DNA of 64,000 nt. Source: Thermoplasmata archaeon (GTDB lineage Archaea > Thermoplasmatota > Thermoplasmata > Thermoplasmatales > Thermoplasmataceae). The stretch's first letter is position 1. The number at the start of each line of letters is the position of its first letter. The notes under the pieces were generated by a model. The model was not told the origin of the DNA. It saw only the letters and a list, made by a program, of their open reading frames with translations, and did no database searches. The position numbers and the translations under genes were made by a program. Positions 16,771 to 55,824 of the stretch are shown piece after piece. The stretch is from positions 124,001-188,000 of the forward strand of contig JAJZJR010000001.1 in assembly GCA_021810045.1 (NCBI GenBank), given 5' to 3'.

Positions 16771-16801
16771 GCCCATTGAATACGTGAACCTGCCATCAGC
16801 A

Positions 16802-16928: not shown

Positions 16929-17010
16929 ATTTTAAAAATTTTATTCATCATTATGAGATTATAGTCAATTCTCAAGAAGAAAATTATTTAGATTTCAAGA
17001 GGTCAATTTC

Positions 17011-22972: not shown

Positions 22973-22988
22973 ATCACATATTATGTGG

Positions 22989-23654: not shown

Positions 23655-24892
23655 ATCCATTGCTGTTATCTGGATTTGGAATAACCATTGAGGTTAACAA
23701 GGCCCGCTTGACCGTAAAACAAAAGGATGAAATTGTTGAGTTTGAGCCTCACAGAATGCCTTACGATTCCATTGTCATTGACGGCCATTACGGTTCTGTG
23801 AGTTTTGAGGCCATGCGTTGGTTATCCAAACATGATGTGTCTGTTATCCTGTTAAACTGGAATGGCAACCTTTTATCATCAACATTCCCAAAAGAAGGTA
23901 ATAACGGTCAACTGAGAATAAAACAGTATGAAAAATACCTCAATGCAGAGGAAAGAACGTTCATAGCGGAAAAAATAATAAATGAAAAAATAGAAAAATC
24001 ACTTGTTTTTCTTGAAAATCTATCAAATTTCTATAAAAAAATAAATTTTGAAAAAATAAAAAATATATTTTCCAAGGAATTTGAGGATTTTAATTTGAAA
24101 AAAGAAAAAATCAAGAAAAATAAAATAAATACAGAAAAAAGCGATTTAAAAAAGAAAATAACTGATTTAATGATGTATGAAGGCAGAGTAGCATCTGCCT
24201 ACTGGTCTGAATTGTCAATTATTTTCAATAAAATAGCACCGGAATTTAATTTTCAGTCCAGAAAAAACCTCTCATATTCCTGGAATATGAATGCATCTGA
24301 CCCGATAAATGCCCTGCTGAATTATGGATACGCAATTCTTGAGGGAATGATCAGAAAATGCATCAATTCAGTTGGTCTTGACCTCTCAATTGGATTTTTA
24401 CATGAAATAGCACCGTCAAAATATCCATTGGTATACGATTTTCAGGAATTATTCAGACATGTTGTGGATTATTCAGTTATCCAAATTCTTGAATCCGGTT
24501 TAAAAAAATCAGATTTTATAACAACCGAAAATTATCATATTCGGTTGAAGCCAAATACAGCAAAATTATTGATTGAAAAAATCAAAGAGAATTTCAATCA
24601 GCGTTATGATTTTAGAAATAAAAAGCACACTCTTGAAAATATAATGCTTGAGGATATAAGGGAATTTGGGAAATATCTATCAGAAAAGTCAAAGAACTTT
24701 GAATTTTTTATGCCCGAAATAAATATAAAGAGAAATGACAGCATCAACTTGAGGAAAAAAATAGAGTCAATCGAGCCAGAAGAAAGAAAAAAACTAAAAA
24801 TTAATAAATCAACATTGTGGTATCAACAAAAGAAAATTAAAGAAGGTAAGCCGGTTAAACTTTACGAAAAGACTAAAGTGAAAATCTCATGA
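23651..24892 (+). CDS. cas1: Casposase (Cas1-family integrase)
   Basis: A 413-residue Cas1 homologue that acts as the transposase: it joins the 3' ends of the excised element to staggered positions in target DNA. The N-terminal beta domain includes DSIVIDGHYGSVSFEAMRWL (39-58) and SVILLNWNGNLL (64-75). The helical catalytic domain has the Cas1 residues E177 (YEGRVASAYW), H251 (GFLHE) and E266 (YDFQELFRH). A lysine-rich segment (127-170) precedes it. After the Cas1 domain an extra tail (about 365-413, with INKSTLWYQQKKIKEGKP) resembles the C-terminal helix-turn-helix of casposases and is absent from CRISPR Cas1. The gene is strikingly AT-rich from 23.9 to 24.9 kb. It overlaps both neighbours by 4 bases; no cas2 or array is present. 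Confidence 0.95.
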   Translation: MNPLLLSGFGITIEVNKARLTVKQKDEIVEFEPHRMPYDSIVIDGHYGSVSFEAMRWLSKHDVSVILLNWNGNLLSSTFPKEGNNGQLRIKQYEKYLNAEERTFIAEKIINEKIEKSLVFLENLSNFYKKINFEKIKNIFSKEFEDFNLKKEKIKKNKINTEKSDLKKKITDLMMYEGRVASAYWSELSIIFNKIAPEFNFQSRKNLSYSWNMNASDPINALLNYGYAILEGMIRKCINSVGLDLSIGFLHEIAPSKYPLVYDFQELFRHVVDYSVIQILESGLKKSDFITTENYHIRLKPNTAKLLIEKIKENFNQRYDFRNKKHTLENIMLEDIREFGKYLSEKSKNFEFFMPEINIKRNDSINLRKKIESIEPEERKKLKINKSTLWYQQKKIKEGKPVKLYEKTKVKIS

Positions 24893-25806
24893 ATAACACT
24901 AGTTTTCCTAAATTTGATGAATTTTTATCTCCAATACTAAATTATTGCAAAGACAAACAAGAACACACACTTTCGGAGACCATAGATAAAATGGCGTATT
25001 ATTTTAGAATGAGCGATGACCAGAAAAATGCTCTCTTGCCTAGTGGTAAACGCACCTACATCTATGATAGAGTTGAATGGGCAATCACTTACCTTGTTCA
25101 AGCTGGGTTATTAGAGAGAACTGGCAGGTCAAAGTTCAAAATATCAGAGCTAGGGTTGAATGAACTTTCTGTAATGCCAGAGAAAATACCATACTCCTAT
25201 CTGCAAAAATTCCCATCTTTTGTGAAATTCAAGGAACTACGCCATCAGAAGAAAAAAAATAATGACAATTCCGAAAGTATGACCCCAGATGAGGAACTTG
25301 AAGTCCTTTTCGAAAAAAGGGAAGATATTCTCATACAAAATTTATTAAGTGCAATTTCCAACATAAAACCTTCAGACTTTGAAAGACTCATTATAGATTT
25401 AGTCCTAGCTCTTGGATATGGGAAAAATCATGAGGAAATGGCAAGAGTCTTAGGGAAAACAGGTGACCAAGGAATAGACGGGGAGATATCACAGGATAAA
25501 CTTGGTTTTGATAAAATATATCTTCAGGCTAAAAAATGGGATTCCAAAAGTTCAATTGGTTCAGGTCAAATAAGGGATTTTATAGGCGCATTAACAATCA
25601 AAAACGCATTAAAAGGGATTTTCATAACAACAGCTTCATTTTCAAAGGAAGCTAAAGAAACAGCCTTGAAAGATAACACTCACAAGATCGTTCTGATAGA
25701 TGGAGATGAACTGGCTAGTCTGATGATTGAGAACGGGATTGGTGTAAGATCTGTCAGAAATTATGAATCAAAGGAAATTGATGAAGACTATTTTGAATCC
25801 TTTTGA
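24889..25806 (+). CDS. mrr: Mrr-type (type IV) restriction endonuclease
   Basis: A 305-residue protein with the two-part Mrr layout. The N-terminal winged-helix domain (about 1-105) contains YDRVEWAITYLVQAGLLERTG. The C-terminal nuclease domain (155-295) shows GDQGIDGEI (D197), YLQAKKW (Q213-x-K215) and QIRDF (Q227), the Mrr variant of the PD-(D/E)XK centre in which Q replaces the E. Mrr proteins cut modified or foreign DNA. It overlaps the casposase gene by 4 bases, so it is part of the same operon, and it lies 15 bases ahead of the type IIG-like gene. Confidence 0.9.
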   Translation: MNNTSFPKFDEFLSPILNYCKDKQEHTLSETIDKMAYYFRMSDDQKNALLPSGKRTYIYDRVEWAITYLVQAGLLERTGRSKFKISELGLNELSVMPEKIPYSYLQKFPSFVKFKELRHQKKKNNDNSESMTPDEELEVLFEKREDILIQNLLSAISNIKPSDFERLIIDLVLALGYGKNHEEMARVLGKTGDQGIDGEISQDKLGFDKIYLQAKKWDSKSSIGSGQIRDFIGALTIKNALKGIFITTASFSKEAKETALKDNTHKIVLIDGDELASLMIENGIGVRSVRNYESKEIDEDYFESF

Positions 25807-25821
25807 AGGGTGTGAAATGAA

Positions 25822-28515
25822 ATGAAGAATTCCAAGGGGCAAGAAGAATATGAAATAGATTTCGAAAGAGTTGTAGAGTTAGTTTCCAAATATGAACAGA
25901 TAAAGAAATCAGGTGAAATCAAGAAGTACAATGAAGAATCCACAAAGAAGGATTTCATCTTGCCCTTGTTTGAAGCCCTTGGTTGGAATGTATATAACAG
26001 GGCCAAAAGAAATGATTCTATCAGTGCAGAGGAAACCATTTCCAAGAAGAGAGTGGATTATGGTTTCCGTATAAACGGTATTCCTAAGTTTTTCCTTGAA
26101 GCCAAATCCCTGAAAGAAGAAAATATACAGACAAATCCTAAATACATTACCCAAGCAATAGACTACGCCTGGATGAAATCGTGTTCATGGGCGATATTGT
26201 GTAATTTTGAAACTATTGCAGTATTTAATGCAGATTGGAAAGGATCAAACTTTGGAAATAACCTATTGTTTGTTCTTCATCCCAACGATTTCATTTCTGA
26301 TAAGAGATTTGAACATCTCTCAAAGGTTGCATTCATAAAAAATGAACTTGACGATGTTGCTTCGAAATATGGCAAGAAGCAAACAAAGAATACGATCAAC
26401 AAACAGCTCTTGAACGATATGATCCTATTCCGTGAGGTTCTTACAAAGGATATTGTAAGAAATAATCAGGATAAACATCTCTCTCAAGATGACCTTGATG
26501 AATCAGTCCAGAGGATTCTTGACCGTTTGATCTTCATTAGGAATGCAGAGGACAGAGAGCTTGAAGAAAATCGCCTACAATCCAATGTAAGACAATGGGC
26601 TTCGAGGGGAAAGGGTGAGTTGGTCAAGGAAATTTCAAAAGTGTACTCATACTTTGATGATCAATACAACAGCAAACTTTTTGCAAAGCATCTTTGTGAT
26701 CACCTGTATCTTGACAATGAGGTACTGCTTGAGGTAATCGAGGGCTTGAATCATTCAAAGGATAATTCATACAGGTATGATTTCTCAATAATCGAATCCG
26801 ATGTTCTTGGAAATATTTATGAGCAGTATTTGGGGAATATCCTCAAAACTACACCAAAAAGGGCAAAATTATCTGAATCCAAAACACATAGAAAAGAACA
26901 GGGTATTTACTATACACCTTCTACCATAGTTGATTACATCGTTAACAACACTGTTGGAGAATACCTCAAAACGCACACACCAGAGGAAATCAAAAACGTT
27001 AAGATACTTGACCCCGCATGCGGTTCTGGAAGCTTTCTTATTCGTGTATACAAAGAGCTTGAAAATTATTGGAAAGAAGAACTTAAGCTCAACGAAAGTG
27101 ATTTGAAACAAACAAGGTTTGATATTGAAAATTCAGAGAAAGTGTATACTCTTAAAACCGAGATTCTCAAAAATAACATCTTTGGCGTTGACCTAGATCC
27201 AAAAGCAGTAGAAATTGCTCAACTGAATTTGTTATTACAGATTTCAGAGAGAAAACATAGATTGCCAGAACTTCAAAAGAATATAAAGATTGGAAACAGT
27301 CTGATAGACGATTCTTCTGTAAGCGACAGGGCATTTGTGTGGGAAAAGGAATTCGAGGCCATAATGAAAGAGGGTGGGTTTGACATCGTGGTAGGTAATC
27401 CGCCTTATTTTAACGTTAAATCTGATGATGTGTTGAAGGCCTCAAGGGTGTATAGGGAAATAGCTAATGGCGTGGTTAATTCCGCTTCTTTGTTTATGCA
27501 AAAAGGGAAGTCATTGTTGCGGGAATCTGGTTATCTTGGGTACATTGTGCCAAAATCGTTTCTAATAGTTGATTCCTGGAAAACTATCAGAAATAACCTA
27601 TTACAAACTAGGTTTACTTCTTTAAAGGATGTTAGTGTCGCATTCGAAGATGTTGGGTTAGAGCAAGTTGTCTTCATTAACCAAAATGTCCAAAACAAAG
27701 ATTCGCAAGTACGTATTGACGTTCTAGACGGGACATCTTTTCTGATTCCTCAGTCATTTTTCGAAGAACGTCAACTAATACTCACATCTATGTATCCAGA
27801 CCTTTTGAATATTGTTAAGAAAATAGAAAAGGACTCAATTGAGTTAGGCGAAATTTCTGAAATGCCTAGAGGTGTAACTGTTAAGTCTAGTGAGTATGAG
27901 CCAGTCTACAAAAATAATAATCTCCAAGTATTGGGTGGTACAAATGTTGAGAGATATTTAATCAAAGATGGTAATAAACGTAAACCAAACAGGTACTTAC
28001 CCAAAGACGATAAAAGACTGTTTTCAAAGAAGAATTTGTTCATCCCCAATAGGATTGTCTACCAAAATATAGTATCAAGCGTTCCTAAGATTGTGGCTAC
28101 AATAGATCAAAAAGGTATACCAACTGATGATACACTCAACAACCTATTAATTAAAAATGACAACTTCAATTATAATTATGTATTGGGAATACTAAATTCA
28201 AACCTAATGACTTTTTACCTGAGATATGCGATAATTAACAATTCTACTCTTACAGTACATCTTGATAAACCATACTTGGGTTTGATTCCCATAAAGAAAG
28301 TATCTCCAGAAAAGCAGACAGAGATAGGGGGCTTAGTCAATGAACTTCTAACCGTTTATAGTGAAATTTCGGAAGAAAGTTCTCAATTTAATGATAAGAG
28401 TATTAGGCTTAGAACCTATGCACGTTCTATTGAGAATAAGTTAAATTTGGCTATCAATGACTTATACGGCATAAATAAACAAGATGCTGAGAGGATTAAA
28501 ATATTGATTTCATGA
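25822..28515 (+). CDS. Type IIG-like restriction-modification protein (Eco57I-like)
   Basis: An 897-residue single-chain restriction-methylation protein. An N-terminal nuclease domain has D79 (RVDYGF) and E93-x-K95 (FLEAKS). A helical spacer leads to the adenine methyltransferase domain with motif I DPACGSGSF (D397 onward), the acidic FGVDLDPKAVEIAQLNLLLQI and the catalytic N526-PPY (VGNPPYF). The C-terminal half is a target-recognition domain (about 650-897) with a TaqI-like specificity region. Cutting and modification in one protein means no separate immunity gene is required. It is the last gene of the rightward casposon operon and ends about 110 bases before the right terminal repeat. Confidence 0.92.
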   Translation: MKNSKGQEEYEIDFERVVELVSKYEQIKKSGEIKKYNEESTKKDFILPLFEALGWNVYNRAKRNDSISAEETISKKRVDYGFRINGIPKFFLEAKSLKEENIQTNPKYITQAIDYAWMKSCSWAILCNFETIAVFNADWKGSNFGNNLLFVLHPNDFISDKRFEHLSKVAFIKNELDDVASKYGKKQTKNTINKQLLNDMILFREVLTKDIVRNNQDKHLSQDDLDESVQRILDRLIFIRNAEDRELEENRLQSNVRQWASRGKGELVKEISKVYSYFDDQYNSKLFAKHLCDHLYLDNEVLLEVIEGLNHSKDNSYRYDFSIIESDVLGNIYEQYLGNILKTTPKRAKLSESKTHRKEQGIYYTPSTIVDYIVNNTVGEYLKTHTPEEIKNVKILDPACGSGSFLIRVYKELENYWKEELKLNESDLKQTRFDIENSEKVYTLKTEILKNNIFGVDLDPKAVEIAQLNLLLQISERKHRLPELQKNIKIGNSLIDDSSVSDRAFVWEKEFEAIMKEGGFDIVVGNPPYFNVKSDDVLKASRVYREIANGVVNSASLFMQKGKSLLRESGYLGYIVPKSFLIVDSWKTIRNNLLQTRFTSLKDVSVAFEDVGLEQVVFINQNVQNKDSQVRIDVLDGTSFLIPQSFFEERQLILTSMYPDLLNIVKKIEKDSIELGEISEMPRGVTVKSSEYEPVYKNNNLQVLGGTNVERYLIKDGNKRKPNRYLPKDDKRLFSKKNLFIPNRIVYQNIVSSVPKIVATIDQKGIPTDDTLNNLLIKNDNFNYNYVLGILNSNLMTFYLRYAIINNSTLTVHLDKPYLGLIPIKKVSPEKQTEIGGLVNELLTVYSEISEESSQFNDKSIRLRTYARSIENKLNLAINDLYGINKQDAERIKILIS

Positions 28516-28625
28516 TAGACTTTTGTCATTCCTTAAAGTGATAATTATGGTTCCAATAGGAATTCAGATCGTTAGACTTGGAATTTTCTTTTAAATCTGA
28601 TAAGGTCAAGTAAAATTTTTGAAAA

Positions 28626-28669
28626 GGGATATAAAAGGCGGCACGTTTTTCGGCCTTATCTATATCCCC
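28626..28669 (-). repeat. Right terminal inverted repeat of the casposon
   Basis: 44 bases that mirror 16885-16928 with a single difference. The element ends at the fourth C of a seven-C run; the next three C's belong to the target duplication. Confidence 0.96.
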
Positions 28670-28683
28670 CCCATTAATTATTT
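28670..28683 (+). repeat. Right target-site duplication of the casposon
   Basis: CCCATTAATTATTT, identical to 16871-16884. It carries a copy of the last four tRNA-Val bases followed by the sequence that originally lay downstream of the tRNA. Confidence 0.95.
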
Positions 28684-28790
28684 TTTTATCAAAAACCAAG
28701 AAAATTGTTGTTCCTGAAAATAGAATTCAGATAGTTCCTCAAAAATAAGAGATTGTCTAATTATAGCCATAAAAACTGATAATTTGTTAG

Positions 28791-29441
28791 ATGTTTAGAG
28801 ACAGGAAAGAGGCAGGTCAGAAACTCGCATTGGCCCTCGAGAAATACAGCAAAGAGAACGTAATAGTTTATGGTCTAACGCGTGGTGGTGTTCCAGTTGC
28901 CTATGAAGTGGCAATTTTCCTAAATGCACCATTGGAGGCGTTCATTGTTAAAAAACTGGGAGCCCGGTATCAGGAGGAGTTGGCACTTGGTGCCGTAACC
29001 GAAGGAGAAAATCCTGTAATCTATTACAACAGGGAAATCCTGTCCCACCTTAATATCCAGGAAGATTACTTGAAAGAGGCTGTCAGAAAAAAGATGAAGG
29101 AAATTACAGCTCTTCAGGGCATCCTGAGGCAAGGGAAAAACATATTTCTCCATAAGGAGGCCATAGCAATAGTTGTAGATGATGGAGTCGCCACAGGTTC
29201 CACCATGATAGCAGCTATCCAATTTTTCAGAAAATTTGGACAGAAAAAAATTGTAGCTGCAATTCCGGCCGGACAGATTTCTGTGCTTGAAGAACTGAAA
29301 AAGTTTGCAGATGAAGTTATCTGTGTCGAACCGGTTTCTTACATGGAGGCAGTCGGAGAATTCTATGGAGAATTCGAGCAGGTGGAAAGTGAGTCTGTAT
29401 TGAGGATTTTAAAAGACGCTGAAAACAGGAGTAAGAAATAG
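28791..29441 (+). CDS. Phosphoribosyltransferase-family protein
   Basis: A 216-residue type I phosphoribosyltransferase-fold protein. The PRPP-binding loop is AIVVDDGVATGSTMIAAI (about residues 124-141), with the paired acidic residues and the GxATGSTM turn. An N-terminal YGLTRGGVPVAYEVA loop (residues 24-38) is the second conserved element. The family contains purine salvage enzymes and proteins of unknown substrate; the hood that would decide specificity is not diagnostic by eye. It is the first host gene to the right of the casposon, and its stop lies 3 bases from the convergent P-type ATPase gene. Confidence 0.85.
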   Translation: MFRDRKEAGQKLALALEKYSKENVIVYGLTRGGVPVAYEVAIFLNAPLEAFIVKKLGARYQEELALGAVTEGENPVIYYNREILSHLNIQEDYLKEAVRKKMKEITALQGILRQGKNIFLHKEAIAIVVDDGVATGSTMIAAIQFFRKFGQKKIVAAIPAGQISVLEELKKFADEVICVEPVSYMEAVGEFYGEFEQVESESVLRILKDAENRSKK

Positions 29442-29443
29442 AA

Positions 29444-32098
29444 TTATGCATTTACAGAATTCATAGGCCTGCGTTTCAGGTAATACTGCAATACCTTAAC
29501 AGCCTCCATCCAGAATGTTGCTGCTGCTGTTCCGAAGATTGTTATTAACCAATCCACTGCTGAAAGATCTGCAGTATGTATGATGGATTGCAAAGGAGGT
29601 ACTATGGTGATAATAAATAAACTCAAAAAAACCAGGATTCCCCATATCAGTACAACTTTGTTTGAGAAGATTCCCTTGAAAATAACGGGTTCTCTTTCGG
29701 TTCTCAGGTTATGGGCAAGGAAAAGCTGAGCAAGTACCCAGGCGGAAAATGCAGCAGTCTGTGCCCGTTCAAGATTTCCTGATGTGTTCAGAATGTAAAA
29801 GTAGATTCCTGAAACTGCTATTGCAATGGCTACTGAAGATATGAGGACTGAAATGATCAAACGCCTGTTGAGAAATGTCGAGCCTTTTTTTCCGCCAGTG
29901 AATGTCATCAGACCAATTTCCTCTCTTTCATAGAGGAATCCACCCAGTGCTGCAACATCGAGAAGCAATTCCATGACTATGATCTGGATAGGAGAAAAGG
30001 GAAATGGTATAGCCAAAATGATGGGGACAAACAGAATCATAACCAGGGAGAGTTTAATGCTTATTTCATACTTGATGCTCTTTTTCAGTGTGTACAAGAT
30101 CTCTCTTCCCTCATGTACGGCTTCTACTATGGTTGAGAAATCATCATCAAGAAGAATCATGTCCGCTGCTTCTCTTGCAACCGCAGTACCCCTAACCCCC
30201 ATGGCTATGCCAATTTCTGCCTTTTTCAGGGCGGGTGAATCGTTTACGCCGTCACCTGTAACCGCTACAGATTCTCCCTTTTCCTGAAGAAGTCTGACCA
30301 ATCTGTATTTGTCTTCAGAAGTAATCCTGGCATAAACAGAAATTTTATCCATCTCATTGGAAAGAGTCTGATCATCCATTTTACTCAGATCTGGTCCAGT
30401 CAATACTTTTCCTGAAGAATTTATCCCCACACTGTCGGCAATCGCCCTTGCAGTTCTGGGATGGTCACCTGTTAACATGATCACTTTTATGCCTGCATTC
30501 TGGCAGGCCAGTATGGAGTGCTTTACTTCCTCCCTGGGAGGATCAATGAAACTTATGAGACCGAGAAAGTGAAGTTCCTTTTCCACATCATCTCTTTCCG
30601 GAAATCTCTGATCCATCTTCCTGAATGCAACGGCGATGACCCGTTCACCCCTGGAAGATATCTCTTCCACATCCTCCAAAATCTTTTGCGAAAAGTCCCT
30701 GTGGGAAGGATTTACAGCAGAACTGTCATTTAGAGCATGTGCACTCCTTGCAAGAATAGCTTCTGGAGCACCACTGGAGAAGGATACAATTGAATTTTCA
30801 GAGGTTTCATATACATAAGATGAGAGTTTCAGTTTGTTGTCGAAACCGAACTCGTCCATGAGACGGTATTTTCTATTAATTTCACTCAAACGTGGATTTC
30901 TGGAAGTGAAGTAATCAAAAACTGCTACTTCCATTGGATCTTTATGAGTCTTCATTGCGTTTTCGCCAAGGTTCAATGTACCTGTCGCGAGTATTGATGC
31001 TACCTCCATAAAATCCGGAGTTTCTCTATATTCTTCCTGATGTGGAAGGTAATGAACACCTGAAACGGACATCTTGTTTTCTGTGATGGTCCCCGTTTTA
31101 TCTGTCGCGATAACTGTTACGCTTCCAAGTGTTTCCGCAGCCCTAAGGTCCTTTACAACAGCGTTATGCCTGGAAAGAGCATAAGCACCAATTGCCAGAG
31201 TTATTGATATAATAACAGGGAGCTCTTCCGGCACAGTGGCAAATGCCATGGATAATCCTGTCAACAGCATATCCCCTAATGGTTCACCTTCGAAATAACC
31301 GACCAGAGGAACAATGACGCTGAACATCACCGCCAGAGTGGCGAGAACTATAATCAGTTTAGAGAGCGATAACTGCAGAGGAGTTTTTTCAGATTCGCCA
31401 GACTCGGTCAATCTGGCAACTCTTCCAAGTTCTGTATTTTTGCCTGTTGAAGTTACAACTGCTTTTCCTGATCCCTGAACAACCATTGTTCCCGAGAATA
31501 CCATATTGGGCATTTCCGTGATTTGATTGCTGACAGGCTTTAATTCTTCGTCTTTAAGCACATAGAATGACTCCCCGGTTAGAGAAGATTCATCAACCTT
31601 TAGAGAGTGGGATTCAATTAATCTTCCATCTGATGGGACAACATCACCAGCAGACAGCAATATAATGTCCCCTGGAACAATGCTGGCTGTTTTTACATCC
31701 CTTGCAGTACCATCACGTATTACTTTTGCAAGAGGCATACGCATATCCCTGAGGGCATCGATTGAGACTTTGGCTTTGTTAAGATTATATGTTTCTATCC
31801 CTACCACAATGAGAACAATAACAACAATTGTTATGGAGTCCCGCGGATCTCCAATTATTGAGTATAGTATTGCAATAATAACCAGTATGAAAATCATAGG
31901 TTCTCTAAGTTCTCTCAGAAATATACCTATGAATCCTGTTTCTTTTTCCAGTTCAATTTCATTTTTGCCGAATTTCCTTAGTCTTTCCTGTGCCTCGGCA
32001 TTATCCAGTCCCCTGTGTCTGTCAGAGCCAAGGCTTGAAATTACCTTTTCAACCGTATCAGTAGAGGCTCCCTCCGCATTCAGAGGTCCCATCATCAA
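29444..32098 (-). CDS. P-type cation-transporting ATPase (P2-like)
   Basis: An 884-residue ion pump. The actuator domain has SLTGES near residue 175. The phosphorylation site is ATDKTGTIT (Asp near 333), directly after a membrane helix with PEELP near 292, where calcium pumps have PEGLP. The hinge motifs TGDHPRTA and TGDGVNDSPALKKAEIGIAMG are intact. About ten membrane helices fit the P2 class. The PEELP variant and lack of a metal-binding N-terminal domain exclude copper and zinc pumps. Calcium, sodium or proton remain possible. It runs convergent with the phosphoribosyltransferase gene. Confidence 0.92.
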   Translation of the reverse strand: MMMGPLNAEGASTDTVEKVISSLGSDRHRGLDNAEAQERLRKFGKNEIELEKETGFIGIFLRELREPMIFILVIIAILYSIIGDPRDSITIVVIVLIVVGIETYNLNKAKVSIDALRDMRMPLAKVIRDGTARDVKTASIVPGDIILLSAGDVVPSDGRLIESHSLKVDESSLTGESFYVLKDEELKPVSNQITEMPNMVFSGTMVVQGSGKAVVTSTGKNTELGRVARLTESGESEKTPLQLSLSKLIIVLATLAVMFSVIVPLVGYFEGEPLGDMLLTGLSMAFATVPEELPVIISITLAIGAYALSRHNAVVKDLRAAETLGSVTVIATDKTGTITENKMSVSGVHYLPHQEEYRETPDFMEVASILATGTLNLGENAMKTHKDPMEVAVFDYFTSRNPRLSEINRKYRLMDEFGFDNKLKLSSYVYETSENSIVSFSSGAPEAILARSAHALNDSSAVNPSHRDFSQKILEDVEEISSRGERVIAVAFRKMDQRFPERDDVEKELHFLGLISFIDPPREEVKHSILACQNAGIKVIMLTGDHPRTARAIADSVGINSSGKVLTGPDLSKMDDQTLSNEMDKISVYARITSEDKYRLVRLLQEKGESVAVTGDGVNDSPALKKAEIGIAMGVRGTAVAREAADMILLDDDFSTIVEAVHEGREILYTLKKSIKYEISIKLSLVMILFVPIILAIPFPFSPIQIIVMELLLDVAALGGFLYEREEIGLMTFTGGKKGSTFLNRRLIISVLISSVAIAIAVSGIYFYILNTSGNLERAQTAAFSAWVLAQLFLAHNLRTEREPVIFKGIFSNKVVLIWGILVFLSLFIITIVPPLQSIIHTADLSAVDWLITIFGTAAATFWMEAVKVLQYYLKRRPMNSVNA

Positions 32099-45288: not shown

Positions 45289-45729
45289 CTATATGGAAAG
45301 TTCGATCTTTGCCATTCTTGAAAATATCAGATTGTCATATTTGACTTCTCTTTCGATAATTGGTATCTTGGATTCTGAATGTAAATTACCATTGCAGAGA
45401 TGCTCAAACTCCATGAGGTCCTCCTGATCCGTATAAACAGCAAGAATACTTTTTGTGGAACTGGTTATACCAATTTCCTCCTGAGCTTTTGATATCTGTT
45501 TCTCGCCTGACATCAACATCAGAAATGCTGATTCAGGGCGTTTTATTTTTTCAGAATTTTCTATGAGCCTTTTGGCCCTTTCGTACGCTATGACTACCTG
45601 CTCTAAACTGATAACCTTGGCTGCATCAACAATGGAAAAAAAATCATTATGGCTGGCACCGAGAAAGTCTTTCATTGACGAAAGACAATCCCAGGCCAGT
45701 AGATTGTAATATTTTATTTCAGGCAACAT
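45289..45729 (-). CDS. KEOPS Cgi121-like protein
   Basis: A 146-residue protein starting [17 protein letters not shown]. The C-terminal half, with [15 protein letters not shown] and [22 protein letters not shown], resembles Cgi121, the KEOPS subunit that binds tRNA for the t6A modification. The frame could open further upstream, at 45870, but that would put 47 codons inside the lonB gene in another frame. The ATG at 45729 overlaps lonB by 11 bases and gives the usual length of the family. No other KEOPS gene is in the window. Confidence 0.72.
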
Positions 45730-47683
45730 TTGTTCCAGGCCTGGTCCCCTGTTTTCCGCCACCAAACATCTTGGAATTGAGGAAATCAGCGACCGAAGAG
45801 AGGAACTTCTGTTTCTCAGGGCTTGCAATGAGAGCATTGTCCCATACCTCCCTGATATCTGTGGCTGCAATGATCTCTATCTTGCCCTCGTGAGCCTGAT
45901 CAAGGACAATATCACCAAAGTTAGCCGCGGGAACAATGACCCTCTTCATTCCGGCCTCAATGGCTGCCTCAACTTTTGCAGTAACTCCACCTACCGGAAG
46001 AACTGCTCCTCTCACACTTAGTGACCCTGTCATGGCTACAGTCTGATCTATTGGGATATTTTCAATTGCAGAGATCACAGCTGTTGCTATGGACACGCTT
46101 GCTGAATCACCTTCAACACCCTCATATGTTCCTATGAACTGAATGTGGATGTCAAGATCGGAAATGTCTTTCCCACTGAGTTTCTTGAAAACTGCGGAGA
46201 CGTTCTGGACTGCTTCCTTTGCAATTTCACCAAGTTTTCCAGTTGCGATTACAACGCCGTTGCCCTTGTGCTGTGCTGGAGTTACTTCGGCAACAATAGG
46301 CATTACTATCCCCGTGTAGTCCGCCATGCCAGTGTTGGCACCAACCACTGCAAGTCCGTTGACCATACCAACCTGTGAACCTTCGCTCCTGAAAGTCTGA
46401 TATGTCTTCCTTATCTGGATTGATCTATCCGCAACCTGCTGCTCAAGTGGTTTGCTCAAAGCCTTTGCCGAGACTACCTGTCTTGCGGAAACAATGTCGG
46501 TTTTCTCTGTTATTGCTATATCTCCAGCAACTCGTATCAGACCACCGAGTTCTCTTAGTCTTAGGGTTAGCTTACCCTTTCTTCCTGATCTCTTCTGGGC
46601 CTCTTTAACAATCTCAGTGATTGCCCCCATATCGAAGTGTGGAATCTTCTTGTCTTTGAGGATTTCCTGGGCGATGAACTGAACAAGCTTATGTCTGTTT
46701 TCATCGTTATCTTCCATGGTGTCATTGACATAGACCTCGTAACCATATCCTCTTATTCTTGACCTTAGAGCCGGGTGAATACCCTGTACTGCATCAAGAT
46801 TTCCAGCCGCAACGAGAACAAAATCGCAAGGAACCGGCTCCGTTTGAACCATGGCACCTGCGCTCCTTTCACTCTGGCCTGAAATTGAAAATTTCTTTTC
46901 CTGCATTGCAGTAAGAAGTGCCTGCTGGCTTTCTGGTCTCAGAAGATTCATTTCATCCACGAACAGAACACCCTTGTGAGCTTTGTGAATGTTACCTGCC
47001 TCTACCCTGTCGTGTGCAGGTGTTTCAAGACCGCCAGACTGGAATGGATCATGTCTTACATCGCCAAGAAGTGCACCTGAATGTGCTCCTGTTGAGTCTA
47101 TAAATGGAGGCTTGTCAGATGGAGTATGCGTAACAAGCAGCTTTGGTACTAAAGCACGTTCCATCCTCATTCCCGGATTAAGTGCCATTATCATATATAT
47201 GAAAAGGGCTGCAAATATTGCCAGGAAGGCTATTGTATAATTGCTGAACGCTATTGATGCGACAATCCCAAGGAAAATCACCGAAATTATGATGAAGAGA
47301 ACTCCCCTTGAACGATCTTTTCTTTCCCTTTCAGCTTTTATCTGGTACTGCCTTACTATCTCCTTACCCTTGCCGGCCGGGAGTGTCTTAACCTTTGGCC
47401 TGTTGGTGTCTTCAGGGTTCGGAAATACAAGTATATCTTCAAGCTCATCCTTTGGCAGGAAATCTACCATAGACTGGGCGAGCATAGATTTTCCAGTCCC
47501 AGGTTCACCAATAAGAAGAACATGTCTCTTCTGAAGAGCCGCTTTCTTCACGACTTCTCTGGCCTCCTCCTGGCCCACAACCTGGTCAAAAAGAATCCTG
47601 GGTACCTGAACATCTTTCGTGGAATTGATGTTTAACTTCTTTACCCATTCATCTACAGATTCTACCGTACTATCCACCACCAC
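45719..47683 (-). CDS. lonB: Membrane-bound archaeal Lon protease (LonB)
   Basis: A 654-residue AAA+ protease. Walker A is [11 protein letters not shown] (about residues 56-66). Two membrane helices (about 125-165) are inserted inside the ATPase domain, which is the archaeal LonB design. Walker B is [11 protein letters not shown]. The protease dyad is Ser of [11 protein letters not shown] and Lys of [16 protein letters not shown]. It degrades damaged proteins at the membrane. It starts at a GTG (47683), and a nearby ATG is out of frame. It overlaps the Cgi121-like gene by 11 bases. Confidence 0.96.
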
Positions 47684-48493: not shown

Positions 48494-50263
48494 TCATAGC
48501 ATAGGAAGCACAAATCTGAATATTGCAATTGATGCTATTATGCTGGACGGTATTGTAATAATGATGGTGTATTTGGCCATTCTCAGGGAGTTGAAGACCG
48601 AATCTATGAGTCTCTGATAGGTATTTTCCTCCCCCATCTTCACCTTTACGATGTGACTCTTCATTCCTATCCTGACATCAGTAATAGTATTCTTGGCCAT
48701 GAGAACAGTCCGTTTTATCATGTCAGCTGCATCCATTGGACTGCCGCTCCTGCCCAGAGGGTTAATGTCTAGGTTGTTTGCATTTACATAATGATTGTCA
48801 GTTGTGTAAATTTCAAGATTGCTTATCTCATTTTCAACAAGTTTTCTTGATAGATCTACGACTTCCCTTGTAATGTTGTTTGAATCTGTAAGAACAACTG
48901 CCTGATATTTTCCGCCTGCTTCGGTTACGATTGCCTGGATTCCCATTGAACCCAGTTCAGCCATGGGTTCGTGAATTCTGTAATATCCCATCCTTGCAGG
49001 GAATTTGTTCTCAAGCCTGTTTAATTCACGTGAGAATGCTTTGTCCATACCTTCACAGTTATCCAGTTCCGGAGCCTTTTCAACAAAGCAGTTCTGGGCA
49101 TCGATAACTGCGAATTCCTTGAGTGCAGTCCTCTCGACATAATGCATGATTTCGAGACCTTCCCTTAGTTTTACATCGTCAAAGGGCTCTCTTTCAGGGA
49201 TAATTGCACCAAAGCCAAATTTGCCGAACTTCTGCATGCCTATAACATATTTTCCAACATTTATTCTCTTGAATCTTGAGATAGTGTCAACGTATTCCAT
49301 TCCATTGAGGCAGTGCATTACACCAGACGCTATTTCATCAATATCGGTATCACCTGAACAGTTGTTGCTGTTCGTTGTTGTTGTGTGGAATACCATCAGG
49401 TCTGTACCAAGATCTGATAAGCGATGCTGCAGTCTCAGAGGAAGATCACTTGAGCCCAATGTTCCAAACGGACCCGGATGTACATAAGGAAAAACCATTG
49501 TAACAAGGCGGGAGTCATCCTTTCTCATTACGTCTACTACCTTAACCGGAACACGTCTGCTGTGCGCATATAGTTGTGCAAAGAATTTGTTGCCAACCTC
49601 AAGGCTCTCGGCACTATTGTTATAATTAAGGAACATCTGGATTATCTTTGTAGCACTTTCACCATATTCCTTGGAAAATTCTTTTGTAGAGCTCTTTACA
49701 AAAATAATACCGCCAATGATGTAGATTATTGAAGAGATTATGAATGGGATCACGGTTGCAAGATCCCTGAACGCAATAGTCAGGGCGAAAATTGCAGCAT
49801 AAGTGTAATTGAGTGCTGGAATGAAAAATTTTGAAAGTTTATCAGAATAATAGGTGTAGAAAATGAGTACTCTCAGAAGAGTAGCTGACGAGATTGAAAC
49901 CATAAGCAGGGCTTCAAGGCTTTGAAACAGGTGAACAATAGATATTATCCAGAAGAAAATTGATGATAAGCCCAGCGACATGAAATTCAGGTAAAGTATT
50001 CTTCTTGCTGGAAAATGAGTTCTTGTGATCCTGACGAAGAGAAGATCCAAAGATATTACAAGCAGATATGACCCCAGAACCCCCACAAGAACGATGAACA
50101 GATTCATTATAAACACAAAATCCACCAGGAGCACTAATGCTGTCAAAGCTACCAGAATGCTCCAATGAGGCGATTTTTTCACCATTTTTGTGAGATCAGA
50201 AAATGCTTTCCCTTCCTGTTCCAGCTCTCTCACTGAACTGGTATATCCTTCTTTATTAAACAT
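48494..50263 (-). CDS. DUF2070 family membrane protein
   Basis: An archaeal DUF2070 protein of 589 residues (ATG 50263; a TTG at 50293 would add ten residues). About seven membrane segments occupy the first 220 residues. The soluble C-terminal part carries the family signature FPYVHPGPFGTLGSSDLP near residue 260, followed by FHTTTTNSNNCSGDTD. It also has Asp/His/Cys-rich motifs that look like a metal-dependent hydrolase centre (HPGPFG, NSNNCSGDTD, AVIDAQNCF). A final hydrophobic helix closes the protein. The activity is unknown. It lies next to the ATP-NAD kinase-like gene, 53 bases from that gene's stop. Confidence 0.88.
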   Translation of the reverse strand: MFNKEGYTSSVRELEQEGKAFSDLTKMVKKSPHWSILVALTALVLLVDFVFIMNLFIVLVGVLGSYLLVISLDLLFVRITRTHFPARRILYLNFMSLGLSSIFFWIISIVHLFQSLEALLMVSISSATLLRVLIFYTYYSDKLSKFFIPALNYTYAAIFALTIAFRDLATVIPFIISSIIYIIGGIIFVKSSTKEFSKEYGESATKIIQMFLNYNNSAESLEVGNKFFAQLYAHSRRVPVKVVDVMRKDDSRLVTMVFPYVHPGPFGTLGSSDLPLRLQHRLSDLGTDLMVFHTTTTNSNNCSGDTDIDEIASGVMHCLNGMEYVDTISRFKRINVGKYVIGMQKFGKFGFGAIIPEREPFDDVKLREGLEIMHYVERTALKEFAVIDAQNCFVEKAPELDNCEGMDKAFSRELNRLENKFPARMGYYRIHEPMAELGSMGIQAIVTEAGGKYQAVVLTDSNNITREVVDLSRKLVENEISNLEIYTTDNHYVNANNLDINPLGRSGSPMDAADMIKRTVLMAKNTITDVRIGMKSHIVKVKMGEENTYQRLIDSVFNSLRMAKYTIIITIPSSIIASIAIFRFVLPML

Positions 50264-50315
50264 TTTGCTAATTTTTAACAAAAAATCTATCAATTGCCGA
50301 ATATTTTTCGGAGAA

Positions 50316-51386
50316 CTAAAATATTACCGGCATAAGTTTGAATCTCCCATAGCTGAAGAGGACCTTGATGTACTTTGGTTTAGTAATCGACTCGCTGTCC
50401 CAGATATCGATGTATAGGCCCTTCAGATACATCAGTTTCTCCTCTGATGCGACAACCATTATGTTTGCAAACCCGACGCGTGAAAGAATGCGCGTAGAAA
50501 GCTGTTTATTACCTCTTCCAAGAAGAAAGCCCTGTCCGCCTATTGGAGAAAGAACGATCTTTGTCTTATTTTCTGATACTGCGAAAATTTCGTCTTCGCT
50601 CAGGTCCTTTCCCAAGAGTTTTTTATTTCGCACCAGATCAAAACCGAGCAGGCTGCTGTCCAGACCGAGTAATAAATTGATTGATTTGCAGGTTGATCCT
50701 GGGCCTATTAGATAATTGACCTCATCCTCCATGCCATCTATGATGTACTGTCCAATTGACTCCATGCTTGTTGCAGGATATTCTGCCTTGGATTCTGACA
50801 TCATGAATTCACTTTTTGGGATGAGAAGTTCTCCATAGGAGGAAAGTTCCATTTCGCCCTTTTCATATGAGATTTCATTTAAATCAATAACATCGGCCCT
50901 GATAAAATCCACAATTTTACCGGAAGCCATCATTCTAATCATTTGAACCGCTCTTGCGATGCTTATGGCGAAAACTGAACTGAACATTTTTGTTCCAAGC
51001 GGCACGCCAATGACCGGTCTTGTGTAACCTGAGTCAACTATGTCCCTTGCTGTTCCATCGCCTCCAAAAAACACCAGAATATCCGGATCTTGCTGAAGAA
51101 TGATTTTTGATGCCTTTACAGTATCACTGGAGTTGCATTCCCCGCTGTAAGAATACACGACAGAATAATTATGAACTCCCGAAATTTCAAAAGCTTCCTC
51201 TCCCATTTTCCCGGAAGCGGTCAGGTACTCCATTTTCAGGTCTCCCACCTCTTCAAGAAATTCTACTGCTTTTTCAAGGGATGTGGATCGCGGGCAGTCC
51301 TTCAGGCTGAGACTGTCTGAGCCTTTTAAGTTGAATAGCTGGCCGCAACCAGCCACAGGATTTACAAGAAAACCGATTTTCAGCAT
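50316..51386 (-). CDS. ATP-NAD kinase-like protein
   Basis: A 356-residue protein of the ATP-NAD kinase/AcoX fold. The start MLKIGFLVNPVAGCGQ and the block PDILVFFGGDGTARDIVD with the GGDG nucleotide motif are diagnostic, followed by VIGVPLGTKMFSSVFA. The larger size and divergent C-terminus match the archaeal AcoX-like subgroup rather than the classical NAD kinase, so the true substrate is uncertain. It lies 10 bases from the M50-like gene stop and probably shares its transcript. Confidence 0.87.
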   Translation of the reverse strand: MLKIGFLVNPVAGCGQLFNLKGSDSLSLKDCPRSTSLEKAVEFLEEVGDLKMEYLTASGKMGEEAFEISGVHNYSVVYSYSGECNSSDTVKASKIILQQDPDILVFFGGDGTARDIVDSGYTRPVIGVPLGTKMFSSVFAISIARAVQMIRMMASGKIVDFIRADVIDLNEISYEKGEMELSSYGELLIPKSEFMMSESKAEYPATSMESIGQYIIDGMEDEVNYLIGPGSTCKSINLLLGLDSSLLGFDLVRNKKLLGKDLSEDEIFAVSENKTKIVLSPIGGQGFLLGRGNKQLSTRILSRVGFANIMVVASEEKLMYLKGLYIDIWDSESITKPKYIKVLFSYGRFKLMPVIF

Positions 51387-51396: not shown

Positions 51397-53121
51397 TCAG
51401 CCTGTATATTGGGCAACCGCAGCTGTGTAAGACTCATTGTAAGCAACTATATACCAGTAATGCGGTTGTGAGTTGAGCGTCATGTTGATTTCTGTTGTAC
51501 TACCCTGCTGGATAGTAAAAATTGTGGCAGAATTTGGGTTTGCATAAAGGTAGGCGAGTTTTGAGTTGACAGTTATGCTAAGACTGCTGCTGGGATGATA
51601 GGTAAATGAAATATTTGGGCCGCCAATTGAAACAATGTGGATGTTCTCATTTCTGAAGGATGTTAGTGAAAGTGAGATTGAACCATTATGTTCCGGATGC
51701 ATTGTGTACGGATTATTGTTGTTGAATAACATAAGCGTACTTACATTGACCTTTAGGACCGACAGTGCTATACTCTTGTAAAAACTGCCCGAATATACCG
51801 TGAGAACGTAATTGTGGAATCCTGGTTGTATGCTTGAAGGAGGATCGATCCTTAGCGAATAATTATACTGACTGCCTGGAGTAATGGATTTGCTTTCACC
51901 AGAGAGGTCAAAACTTACAGATGGGGAAATTTCGAATGCTGGAACTATGGTAGACTGCCCGGTATTGTTCACGGTAACATTGAAAGTTACCAGGCTGTTT
52001 CCGGGATTTGTTAAAAGAAAGTATTCCTGGGACACGTTGGCACTGAAGCTGCTTGAGTTTGTGTGAAAGGGAAACGGGGCCAGTCCCAAGACAATGATGG
52101 CAAATGCCACCACAGCGATGGCTTTTGTGTTGACATGTATTCCAGATATGTTGTTCAGAGGCTGTGGACCCTTCATTCCCACCAATAGGGCAAAAACTGC
52201 AAGAATAATCCATGGCGGGTAAATTATACTAAGTATGATGATGACGAGGAGAGATATGTAAGAAAGATATTGTGCCTTTCTTCCAAACAGTGCTGATGAT
52301 ATTAACCCCCCATCAAGGAAGCCAAGCGGGAGAGCATTGAATGCAGTTATAACGATCCCGGCCCATCCTGCAAGTGCCAGTGGATCAAGAATACCATTGG
52401 ATGGAATCAACGGGTTAGCCATGAATTGCAGTACCAATGGAGAACCTATGGTCTGAACAGGAGAATTAACAATAGGGGCGGATGGTGGGAAATTGAATGT
52501 TATAAGTGAGCCTATTATGAGAAATATAAGGGATATGAAAAACCCTGTTATGATTGAGTAACCTCCAGATTCGATCATGGCTTTTCTGCTTACATAAGGC
52601 CTGTTCGGGGAATTTATTAGCCCCATTGACCCAAGGCCAAGTGGATTCGGAATTAAAATTGGAAATGGATAATCCATGCCGTTCTTCTTTAATGCGACAT
52701 ATTTTGCGGCTTCCCTCCCGGCAAAGATTACTGTCAGGGGAAGCATATAGAATAAAAGAGATGTGGAGATATTTGCAAGAATATTTCCTGGTCCCTGATA
52801 ACTGACCTGGTAGGTATATCCGAAATAAGCTGAAAACCCAATAGTTGCCGCAAGAAGAATAAGCTTTATCCGGTAATCTGTACTGTTCTTTGTTGATGGT
52901 TTAGGCATCACAATGATTTCGTCTACTTCACCTGTGCTTGTAAATGTTAGAAATCCTAGTTTTTCCAGTTCCTTGGCTAGTTTTACAAAATTCTGTTCGG
53001 GTTTAATATGAAATTCTGGAACCCTGATGGTAACTGTATCTTCTCCTCCACTATACGAAGTATATTCGTAATATTTAGATACGGTATCAAGAATGAGCTT
53101 TCGAACTTCCTGTTCTGTCAT
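51397..53121 (-). CDS. M50 (site-2 protease)-like membrane protein without zinc-binding histidines
   Basis: A 574-residue membrane protein with the frame of an archaeal M50 protease: helices from residue 85, a second family block NALPLGFLDGGLISSALFG (262-280, D270), and extra helices. However, the catalytic HExxH is replaced by FAGREAAKYVA, so H is R136 and K140; only E137 remains. The zinc site should be lost. An N-terminal soluble domain (1-75) and a C-terminal exported beta-rich domain (about 340-574) with Asn/Ser-rich NPxNSLVTFNVTVNNTG repeats follow. It may be a pseudo-protease that binds substrates. It is 21 bases from alaS. Confidence 0.82.
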   Translation of the reverse strand: MTEQEVRKLILDTVSKYYEYTSYSGGEDTVTIRVPEFHIKPEQNFVKLAKELEKLGFLTFTSTGEVDEIIVMPKPSTKNSTDYRIKLILLAATIGFSAYFGYTYQVSYQGPGNILANISTSLLFYMLPLTVIFAGREAAKYVALKKNGMDYPFPILIPNPLGLGSMGLINSPNRPYVSRKAMIESGGYSIITGFFISLIFLIIGSLITFNFPPSAPIVNSPVQTIGSPLVLQFMANPLIPSNGILDPLALAGWAGIVITAFNALPLGFLDGGLISSALFGRKAQYLSYISLLVIIILSIIYPPWIILAVFALLVGMKGPQPLNNISGIHVNTKAIAVVAFAIIVLGLAPFPFHTNSSSFSANVSQEYFLLTNPGNSLVTFNVTVNNTGQSTIVPAFEISPSVSFDLSGESKSITPGSQYNYSLRIDPPSSIQPGFHNYVLTVYSGSFYKSIALSVLKVNVSTLMLFNNNNPYTMHPEHNGSISLSLTSFRNENIHIVSIGGPNISFTYHPSSSLSITVNSKLAYLYANPNSATIFTIQQGSTTEINMTLNSQPHYWYIVAYNESYTAAVAQYTG

Positions 53122-53142: not shown

Positions 53143-55824
53143 TTAATCCAAAATTGCCCTTATTAAGCTTTTATCTAACCTGAATGCCCCGGAAAGCTGT
53201 GCATGTCTGTTACTGCCCTGCACATTTGCACCTGTTTTGGCAGCAAGTTTCTCTGCGATTGCCTTTGCATCTGCCTTGGTGGAAATAATCATGAGGTCGG
53301 AAAATTCTCCCTTAATGTTAACGATGAACGCCAGGTCCTTCCTGAGAGAGAACACTGCACTGACTATTCCTTTTAGTCCCTCGTCGCTGAATGATCCTGA
53401 AATAAAAATAGAATCTGAACCGGAAATGTCAAGTCTCTGGGCTCCTGCTATTGCTGAATCAATCATATCTTTCAGGTGTTTTTCTTTCTCTTTTTTCATT
53501 TCAAGGTTTTCGGAAATCAGCTTCCCGAGAGATTCCCTGACTTTATCCTGTACAGTTGACAATGCACCTTCAACAAACTGTTCATTTGCGTATATGTCCT
53601 GCACGTAATCCAGTGCTGCATCACCTGCGGCAAATGTAAACCTCTGTATTCCCTCCTGGATAGTTTCAACCTTCAGGATTTTCAGGAAACCAATTTCGGA
53701 TGTGTTCTTCAGATGAGTACCGCCACAGCCTTCGGCGTCGACGCCATCAATTTCAACAACCCTGATGGTATTTCCATCCGGAACACCGCCTTCAAATAAC
53801 CTGAACCCGTATTTTGCAATGGCTTTATTCCACTCAATGTTCCTGACTGCAATGGCTCTTCCCTGTGTGATATATTCAAGGCACTTCCTTTCTATCTGCC
53901 GTATTTCCTCATCCGATGGCTTCCGGAAATGAGTTATGTCTATCCTTGATCTGTCAACCCCTTTCTGGACCCCGCTCTGCCATACATGTTCACCGAGAAT
54001 TTCTCTTAAGACTCCAAGAAGAAGATGCGTTGACGAGTGATGAACCATAAGCCTGCGTCTTCTGAAGTAATCAACATGCCCAATAATTCTCGAGTGTTCC
54101 GGGATTTCAGTTTCAACCTTATGAACAATTGAGCGGCCATATCTGGTGGCACCCTGCATTTCAACTTTCTTTCCTTTGTAAGTGAAGTATCCAAGATCAG
54201 TGGGTTGTCCTCCTCCTTCCGGGTAGAAAGCTGTCTGGTTCGGTATAATCTCCTTGCCGTTTGAATGTAAAACAATGGCATTGAATTCCCTTATGCCTGT
54301 ATCATCATAGTATAGAGGCCTTGTAAATATGTCCGGGTACTTCTCTTTCTTCTTCTTCGCGACCTCAGGTTTTTCGTGGAGCGAAGTAATGAGGGAATTA
54401 AAATCTCCAGGAATGCTTATTTTCGCATTTCTTTTTTCCTTTACAATTCTTGCTGCAGTCTCAGGTATTATGCCCGATGAATCATAAAGGGTTACCAGAT
54501 CCTCTGTTGAAAGTGTGCCTTTTCTGTCATATATTCTTAGGACAAGACTTTCGCCTTTCTGTTCCAGTTCACTGTATTTTTTTTCCTCTTCATCAAGTGC
54601 TTCCAGAATGAAAGATTCCGGGAAATTCTTTATGATATCTTTCAGGTGCTCATGATGCAGTTTTATGAGTTCCCACAAAGATCCGGTGTAACCGCACTCT
54701 GCCTTTGCCCTGAGGGCCCTTCTTATGAGAAGTCTTGCGAGGTATCCCACCTTAACATTGCTTGGAATCACATAGTCCGAAAACAGAATAAGGAGGGTCT
54801 TTGTGTGATCGGCAATGGTGTATACGGCCTTTGCAGTATCAAACTGTCTTTCAAGGTCATCCCTGCTTTCAACAAGACCTTTTTTGGTTAACTCGGGCAG
54901 GCTCCTGTCAAGAACTGCTTCCCTGTCAAACGGTTCCATCTCGGCAGAATGCCTTGAGAGAAGGGCAAGGCTCTCAGGGTCCCATTGTGTTATACCTGAG
55001 TTCCTGACTATATGATCTATGGCATAGGGCAGTACAGCCTGATAAACGGTTGCCGTTCCATTTGACAGCCATACCAGCCTTTCAAGTCCATAGCCGGTAT
55101 CAACTATCATCATATCCATTTTTGAATATCTGTTCCCATCGATTTCAACAGGGCCTTCCGGATCAATGGACATGTCCATGAATACAAGGGTTGCAACTTC
55201 AAGTCCACCGATAAGGACCTCAAAAGCATTACCTCCATTTCCTCCCCCGGACCATGGTTTTTCCTTGTAGCTGATGAGTTGTGGATCAATGCCCATGGAT
55301 TCTGTGAGGAATCTGTGACAGTACTGTGTAGTTTCTTCTTTCCAGTAAACAAATTTGTCCTTATAGTTGAAAGAGTCGTGACACATCATTTCAAAGGAGG
55401 TCAGATGCCTCCCTGTTTCACCAACAAGATCTGTATCAAGCATTCTTACAGACGGCTGGGACATCGCGAGAGGATTTCCCGGTGGGGCAACCCTGCCTGA
55501 AGTAACATGAGGCTGAAAATTATAGATTGAAGCGTTAACCAGGAGAACGTCGTCCCGCCACCTGGGTACTACGGGGTATGGTCCGATGATCTTATGATTT
55601 TCCCTGAAAAAGTCCAGAAACAGAGATCTTACTTCATTGAGAGAATACTGTTTGTTGACTGGGCTGTTACCTATGAAAGAATAGGAATCACAGGGAGGGT
55701 CTCCACATGTTTTTCTGTCGCTGTCCAGTGTCCAGAAATAATGTCCGCATGAAATACATGATTTCTTTTGAAAGCCTGATTCTTTGAAAAATTCCAGATC
55801 CAATTCCCCTGTGGTTACTGACAT
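53143..55824 (-). CDS. alaS: Alanyl-tRNA synthetase, archaeal type
   Basis: An 893-residue class II synthetase that charges tRNA-Ala and edits mischarged serine. Archaeal traits: an N-terminal zinc motif CISCGHYFWTLDSDRKTCGDPPC, followed by the catalytic motifs (VNASIYNFQPHVTSG, TSFEMMCHDSFNYKDK, GYGLERLVWL). The editing domain has HHSSTHLLLGVL and CGGTH. The C-terminal oligomerisation/helical region ends with a DHHA1-like part (about 800-893). It is the full archaeal length. Confidence 0.97.
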   Translation of the reverse strand: MSVTTGELDLEFFKESGFQKKSCISCGHYFWTLDSDRKTCGDPPCDSYSFIGNSPVNKQYSLNEVRSLFLDFFRENHKIIGPYPVVPRWRDDVLLVNASIYNFQPHVTSGRVAPPGNPLAMSQPSVRMLDTDLVGETGRHLTSFEMMCHDSFNYKDKFVYWKEETTQYCHRFLTESMGIDPQLISYKEKPWSGGGNGGNAFEVLIGGLEVATLVFMDMSIDPEGPVEIDGNRYSKMDMMIVDTGYGLERLVWLSNGTATVYQAVLPYAIDHIVRNSGITQWDPESLALLSRHSAEMEPFDREAVLDRSLPELTKKGLVESRDDLERQFDTAKAVYTIADHTKTLLILFSDYVIPSNVKVGYLARLLIRRALRAKAECGYTGSLWELIKLHHEHLKDIIKNFPESFILEALDEEEKKYSELEQKGESLVLRIYDRKGTLSTEDLVTLYDSSGIIPETAARIVKEKRNAKISIPGDFNSLITSLHEKPEVAKKKKEKYPDIFTRPLYYDDTGIREFNAIVLHSNGKEIIPNQTAFYPEGGGQPTDLGYFTYKGKKVEMQGATRYGRSIVHKVETEIPEHSRIIGHVDYFRRRRLMVHHSSTHLLLGVLREILGEHVWQSGVQKGVDRSRIDITHFRKPSDEEIRQIERKCLEYITQGRAIAVRNIEWNKAIAKYGFRLFEGGVPDGNTIRVVEIDGVDAEGCGGTHLKNTSEIGFLKILKVETIQEGIQRFTFAAGDAALDYVQDIYANEQFVEGALSTVQDKVRESLGKLISENLEMKKEKEKHLKDMIDSAIAGAQRLDISGSDSIFISGSFSDEGLKGIVSAVFSLRKDLAFIVNIKGEFSDLMIISTKADAKAIAEKLAAKTGANVQGSNRHAQLSGAFRLDKSLIRAILD

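Follow-up and report, generated by a model that had tools for sequence, protein, structure and literature searches.

In the portions of the literature available for this comparison, the plant protein EGY3 is described as the sole pseudoenzyme of the site-2 protease (S2P) family and as confined to plants (PMC9355673; also PMC12389704); it is the one S2P-class pseudoenzyme described so far, and its mechanism is not settled. The zinc ligands of the active enzyme SpoIVFB are given as H43, H47, and D137 in the relevant section of PMC11486902. The parts of archaeal S2P reviews and of the E-plasma genome paper that bear on these proteins present S2Ps as zinc proteases and make no mention of an inactive form, and a full-text literature search in which subscription journals are thinly covered returned no archaeal or bacterial pseudo-S2P.

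Dead intramembrane proteases have become regulators among the inactive rhomboids, and an inactive subunit is likewise found in the mitochondrial processing peptidase, a member of the M16 family. As described in the available part of PMC3149277, the iRhoms resemble the protein studied here in being inactive relatives of an intramembrane protease, but they have the rhomboid fold, belong to serine chemistry, and are eukaryotic, and we claim no homology between them and the pseudo-S2P. The mitochondrial processing peptidase is a heterodimer with an alpha subunit that lacks zinc ligands, according to the available section of a review of inactive metallopeptidases (PMC11266112). It thus provides a precedent for a split between catalytic and zinc-less homologous subunits, although it is soluble and its heterodimer is stated outright, whereas for the pseudo-S2P we only infer one. 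The terms M50, S2P, site-2, and EGY3 occur 0 times in that review.

The pseudo-S2P described here is encoded in a 64,000-nucleotide stretch of DNA from a Thermoplasmata archaeon (the window). As far as the available accounts of EGY3 go, the two proteins are alike in that each is an S2P homologue that lacks the zinc motif, is conserved throughout a large clade, and coexists with active relatives in its cell. EGY3, however, is a eukaryotic thylakoid protein, whereas the pseudo-S2P is archaeal and has a predicted extracellular beta region; unlike EGY3, it also sits, by gene order, at the ancestral position and is accompanied by a complementary active copy. The pseudo clade arose inside an archaeal order, which speaks for an origin independent of that of EGY3.

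Judged from its sequence, the product of the gene (Table 1) is almost certainly a catalytically dead S2P homologue. The first-pass annotation had proposed that the M50 frame is kept, with its LDGG motif, and that the HExxH site reads R136-E-A-A-K140. Both points were confirmed: the 574-aa frame is intact, residues 268 to 272 read F-L-D-G-G, the protein scores 31 bits against the Pfam Peptidase_M50 model (cut-off, 27.2), and the predicted fold of its membrane part matches that of MjS2P. Of the pseudo-form members scanned, 30 of 31 also match Peptidase_M50 at an E value of 0.01. An NCBIfam scan of the protein gave no relevant family, and comparison with the sequences of solved structures gave no useful match (the zinc metalloprotease aq_1964 at E = 0.39 and an unrelated transporter at E = 0.015).

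Table 1. Features of the pseudo-S2P locus (positions are those of the window)
Feature	Position	Strand	Basis
Pseudo-site-2-protease gene, 574 aa	51397..53121	-	Open frame, ATG start; Pfam M50; MjS2P fold match
N-terminal alpha/beta domain, residues 1-80, predicted cytosolic	52882..53121	-	AlphaFold2 (AF2) models
Seven-helix S2P membrane core, residues 81-347, predicted catalytically dead	52081..52881	-	Helix calls; MjS2P Z 10.2
R136-E137-A-A-K140 at HExxH site	52702..52716	-	[RK]E..[KR] in 76/76 scorable family rows
Beta-hairpin, residues 155-169, at place of S2P re-entrant loop	52615..52659	-	Predicted strands 155-159, 164-169
L269-D270-G271-G272; D270 corresponds to third zinc ligand in active S2P	52306..52317	-	Asp in 78/78 family rows
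Extracellular (predicted) two-domain beta (Ig-like) region, residues 357-574	51400..52053	-	AF2 strands; Ig-like structure matches
alaS (alanyl-tRNA synthetase), ancestral upstream neighbor	53143..55824	-	Name read from sequence
NAD-kinase-like gene, 10 bp downstream of pseudo-S2P	50316..51386	-	Pfam NAD_kinase
DUF2070 membrane protein gene, next in run, 22-bp gap	48494..50293	-	Pfam DUF2070, 432 bits

The whole protein was modeled with AlphaFold2 from 36 rows (pLDDT 78). Because a fold search with this model was swamped by the Ig-like domains of the ectodomain, the membrane part was folded separately, and the first 350 residues modeled alone (32 rows) gave a pLDDT of 81 and a pTM of 0.80. The predicted core helices span residues 81-109, 114-146, 179-210, 247-262, 270-300, 302-314, and 330-347, with the predicted beta-hairpin between helices 2 and 3. 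The best structural match of the predicted core is MjS2P (3b4r; Z 10.2, rmsd 4.8, 183 residues), which is also the top Foldseek row for the predicted membrane part (E = 3e-3), followed by SpoIVFB (8vjm; Z 8.0, rmsd 4.7, 182 residues). The core is thus still predicted to be S2P-like, sharing with both enzymes its fold, the conserved Glu, and the LDG Asp, and by motif positions R136, K140, and D270 correspond to H43, H47, and D137 of SpoIVFB. Residues 4 to 75 of the model resemble small alpha/beta domains such as EpsM/PulM (Z ~7), which may reflect just a common arrangement.

The replacement of the zinc motif extends to the whole family, as alignment of the orthologues indicated. Relatives were present in 112 of the 117 genomes of the order that were searched, and the window's taxonomic family (f1) contributed 78 long-form rows from 76 of its 77 genomes, with all 19 genera represented; 2 of these rows cannot be scored at the motif, owing to a contig that ends early and to a run of N. 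In the 76 scorable rows, and in 19 of 19 genera, the motif is [R/K]-E-x-x-[K/R], occurring as R-E-K in 43 rows, R-E-R in 31, and K-E-K in 2, and HExxH is found nowhere along any of the 78 rows. The motif glutamate is constant (76/76), as is the LDGG Asp (78/78). Named records in the family include Acidiplasma aeolicum VT, a Cuniculiplasma sp., E-plasma, and clone ASS_A1, which marks it as the family of the acid-loving Thermoplasmatales; the record of A. aeolicum VT is among the members with a replaced motif. HExxH is retained in 35 of 35 long-form orthologues from sister families f2 to f6 of the order, in all 40 class-level relatives read from outside the order (of ~154 matched), and in 10 of 10 phylum-level rows read from outside the class. 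Orthologues with an intact HExxH had been named beforehand as a sign of a recent mutation or sequencing error; such orthologues do exist outside the family, including all 35 sister rows, but none lies within it, and this distribution marks HExxH as the ancestral state and not the pseudo motif as a recent error.

In an 85-row tree that omitted the motif columns, the pseudo forms group in a single clade (support, 100) whose stem is long (1.57 changes per column), and the motif state changes once. A 39-row tree also recovers the pseudo clade (100/100) and unites it with the short and active long forms of the order (100/99). On these trees, loss of the zinc ligands is a single event and an old one.

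The active long-form S2P of the sister families, which lies behind alaS, is the positional and sequence orthologue of the pseudo-S2P and has the same ectodomain, differing by its HExxH (35/35). The AlaRS gene adjoins the pseudo gene at 74 of 78 loci and, in sister families, the active long-form gene at 31 of 35; at the class level, it is directly adjacent in 5 of 40 loci, where flanks are often short. By gene order, then, the pseudo form is the copy that holds the ancestral place behind alaS. On the downstream side and within the flanks examined, the NAD-kinase-like neighbor occurs at 53 of 78 family loci and at 0 of 35 sister-family loci, and the DUF2070 neighbor occurs at 43 of 78 family loci.

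A second, active paralogue had been suggested as something to look for elsewhere in the genome, and it was found with its HExxH intact. The window's genome encodes three further M50 proteins (L001, L002, and the short L004), each with HExxH, of which L002 (359 aa, at L002:1105-2181) is the nearest relative of the pseudo-S2P. L002 stops directly after the last membrane helix, at the point where the long form continues into the ectodomain. By hand count, its orthologues, whole or partial, are present in 70 of the 77 family genomes, among them all 35 of good quality; the 7 family genomes without it are 62 to 84% complete. The short form keeps HExxH in 18 of 18 loci and again in a further 22 of 22, some of them from the same genomes. 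It adjoins a NurA-like gene (name read from sequence) in 12 of 18 loci, and the pseudo gene and the active short gene are unlinked. Since the dead copy has both the ancestral place and the ancestral layout, the active copy would be the one that was moved and shortened, and since the ancestral ectodomain is in the dead copy and HExxH is in the short one, catalysis and ectodomain have been divided between two genes. The short copy may have come from duplication within the family, as a clade of pseudo and short forms is not rejected (p-AU 0.439 in the 39-row tree), or it may have come by transfer from a sister family, as it stands beside family f2 in the 85-row tree (support, 84). A scan of viral contigs for a virus-borne origin, made with a narrow pattern, gave zero matches, which is a weak result.

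In genus g15 (L167, L168, and L169), the active short S2P has LDGS in place of LDGG, beside an intact HESAH. The active short S2P of one closed genome (G060) is broken into two pieces (L260, L261, and L262), one of them at the end of the record with a 76-bp exact overlap, and both lie beside 1.3-kb repeats that are 99% identical. The split is perhaps an assembly or insertion effect, and the broken short copy means that the pair is maybe not obligatory in that genome.

The beta region that the first-pass annotation took to be an exported domain is predicted as such by the AF2 model; seven helices, with the basic N-terminal side taken as cytosolic, would place it outside the cell. Residues 358 to 459 match Ig-like domains (e.g., 8jmw; Z 11.1, rmsd 2.7, 101 residues), and comparison of 75 pseudo-form tails with 34 tails of the active long form shows homology across 226 columns (probability 99.4%, E = 1.7e-21). 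Ten of the 13 N-x-S/T sequons in the window's protein lie at or after residue 351, and the 75 family tails average 10.3 sequons per ectodomain, compared with 4.5 in shuffled tails. Binding of glycoproteins, which the first-pass annotation had suggested for this domain, would be no more than a candidate role; with its predicted Ig-like fold and its wealth of sequons, the ectodomain may itself be glycosylated.

These patterns are best explained by duplication followed by division of labor. In this account, each genome of the order's ancestor carried a single such S2P, behind alaS, in which one chain joined the zinc site and the outer beta region. Of the two copies in the window's family, the alaS-linked one has given up catalysis but retains the outer region, and the other has kept HExxH and lost the outer region. 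As for mechanism, we think it likeliest, though with somewhat less than an even chance, that the pseudoprotease acts as a noncatalytic partner of the active copy. The pseudo form would then be the noncatalytic half of a split S2P, with a dead core that still holds transmembrane segments through a conserved groove and an ectodomain that senses or binds the outer part of substrates. It might present substrates to the active copy or restrain that copy, and the short copy would cut them, either as part of a heterodimer or through a controlled hand-over. We favor this reading because the parts of a single ancestral protein are now distributed over two genes, both of which have been kept. On the other hand, as the active copy has lost the ectodomain, this region could serve something unrelated to cutting. 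Distances between pseudo forms and those between active forms correlate beyond the AlaRS distances (partial r = 0.56, 41 genomes), but the NAD-kinase-like and DUF2070 proteins, used as controls against the short form, gave 0.50 (27 genomes) and 0.61 (10 genomes), respectively. With controls nearly as high or higher, the correlation is unspecific and was not used as support for partnership.

It is also conceivable, if somewhat unlikely, that the dead core works alone, binding the transmembrane segments of surface proteins in order to stabilize, retain, or deliver them, as an escort or decoy in the manner of EGY3 or of the inactive rhomboids (iRhoms), with which the first-pass annotation had compared the protein, and leaves the active S2P untouched. 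Conservation of the groove and hairpin positions is consistent with such a role, as are the Ig-like domains of the ectodomain and its excess of sequons, and both models offer precedents, EGY3 being reported to stabilize chloroplast superoxide dismutase and iRhoms to remove rhomboid substrates (available portions of PMC9355673 and PMC3149277, respectively). A lone escort, however, leaves unexplained why the part missing from the active copy is precisely the one retained in the inactive copy. A quite improbable alternative is a receptor, in which the ectodomain senses the outside and the core relays a signal to the N-terminal cytosolic domain. The three-part layout of N-terminal alpha/beta domain, seven helices, and ectodomain would suit this role, but the N-terminal region is also present in the active short and long forms and so is not a new output domain, and the Pfam scan gave no effector domain.

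Rates of change indicate that the gene is maintained. Of 23 pairs, 17 gave a finite whole-gene dN/dS, ranging from 0.043 to 0.226. In seven pairs, it is 0.035 to 0.087 for the core, 0.060 to 0.199 for the ectodomain, and 0.005 to 0.049 for the short active form, with the core value below that of the ectodomain in 5 of the 7; one of the seven (G104/G105) is doubtful, its pseudo copies being much more alike than its short ones. Purifying selection acts strongly on the dead core, although in most of the seven pairs the core evolves faster than the active copy. Selection for a noncatalytic role, which had been read from the clean double replacement, is supported by the single ancient loss, its spread over 19 genera, the low dN/dS, and the invariant Glu and Asp. 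We consider it very unlikely that the membrane part is a mere anchor: loss of catalysis with retention of the ectodomain would fit an anchor, but the low core values, mostly under those of the ectodomain, argue that the core is more than that, and the intramembrane R/K, E, K/R, and D are retained in all scorable rows. Relaxed selection after the loss, also considered, is contradicted by dN/dS. One of the genomes of the doubtful pair, G105, carries two pseudo-S2P genes (L014 and L035). One of them, on a small contig, is all but identical to its G104 counterpart, while the short copies of the two genomes differ strongly, and this extra gene represents either a contaminating contig or a recent transfer.

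The nature of the replaced residues was compared between 59 active rows and 26 pseudo rows. His occupies positions 136, 140, 273, and 318 in each of the 59 active rows and is replaced at these four sites in all or nearly all 26 pseudo rows: position 136 is Arg in 26 of 26, position 140 is Lys in 15 and Arg in 11, position 273 is Leu in 20, and position 318 is Gly in 21. Gln268 of the active rows is mostly Phe or Tyr in pseudo rows, and Asn86 is Lys or Arg. E137, D270, G101, P128, P158, G164, G167, G193, G271, and G315 are kept in 26 of 26 pseudo rows and N262 and P265 in 25, and the hairpin residues G164 and G167 are invariant in pseudo and active forms alike. The Arg and Lys might take over the two positive charges of the lost zinc ion, with R136 and K140 balancing E137 and D270 within the membrane so that the core stays folded. 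Such pairing would account for both sites being basic in every row and for the unvarying acids. More tentatively than for the partnership itself, we suggest that Thermoplasmatales-type archaea have turned an ancestral S2P into a two-subunit machine, with a short zinc-bearing cutter and a zinc-free pseudo-subunit that bears the outer sensing region and holds a buried Arg/Lys-Glu/Asp cluster in place of the zinc ion. The invariant Glu and Asp of the catalytic site could instead mean that the protein is still a protease, through another metal site or another chemistry. We regard this as highly improbable, as two of the three zinc ligands are now basic, no HExxH occurs elsewhere, and the only column that is mostly His or Cys in pseudo rows (353) lies outside the core. 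A recent mutation or sequencing error has a negligible probability even though the window's assembly comprises 81 contigs: all 76 scorable rows, from 19 genera and with A. aeolicum VT among them, share the replaced motif, which rules it out.

The window's family would represent a second, apparently independent origin of a pseudo-S2P, reached through a duplication that can be traced, and if the proposed split into two subunits is true, it would mark the first description of an S2P pseudoenzyme from a prokaryote. The ancestral state, in which one enzyme combined both parts, is known, and an active copy survives. The proposal makes the clear prediction that the two halves still act in one pathway. 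Comparing active orthologues with dead ones encoded at the same locus may also help reveal how a zinc site becomes a stable nonmetal membrane core.

Other parts of the window contain further genes of potential interest. A LonB-type membrane protease gene lies a few genes downstream of the pseudo-S2P (45719-47683), and a 635-aa minus-strand protein encoded at 6690-8597 has no Pfam match at an E value of 0.001. The region from 16000 to 30000 is AT-rich (GC, 0.32 to 0.38) and encodes an 883-aa minus-strand protein with no Pfam match (18621-21272), Cas1 (23651-24892), and an Eco57I-type restriction-modification protein (25822-28515). This region is likely a defense island.
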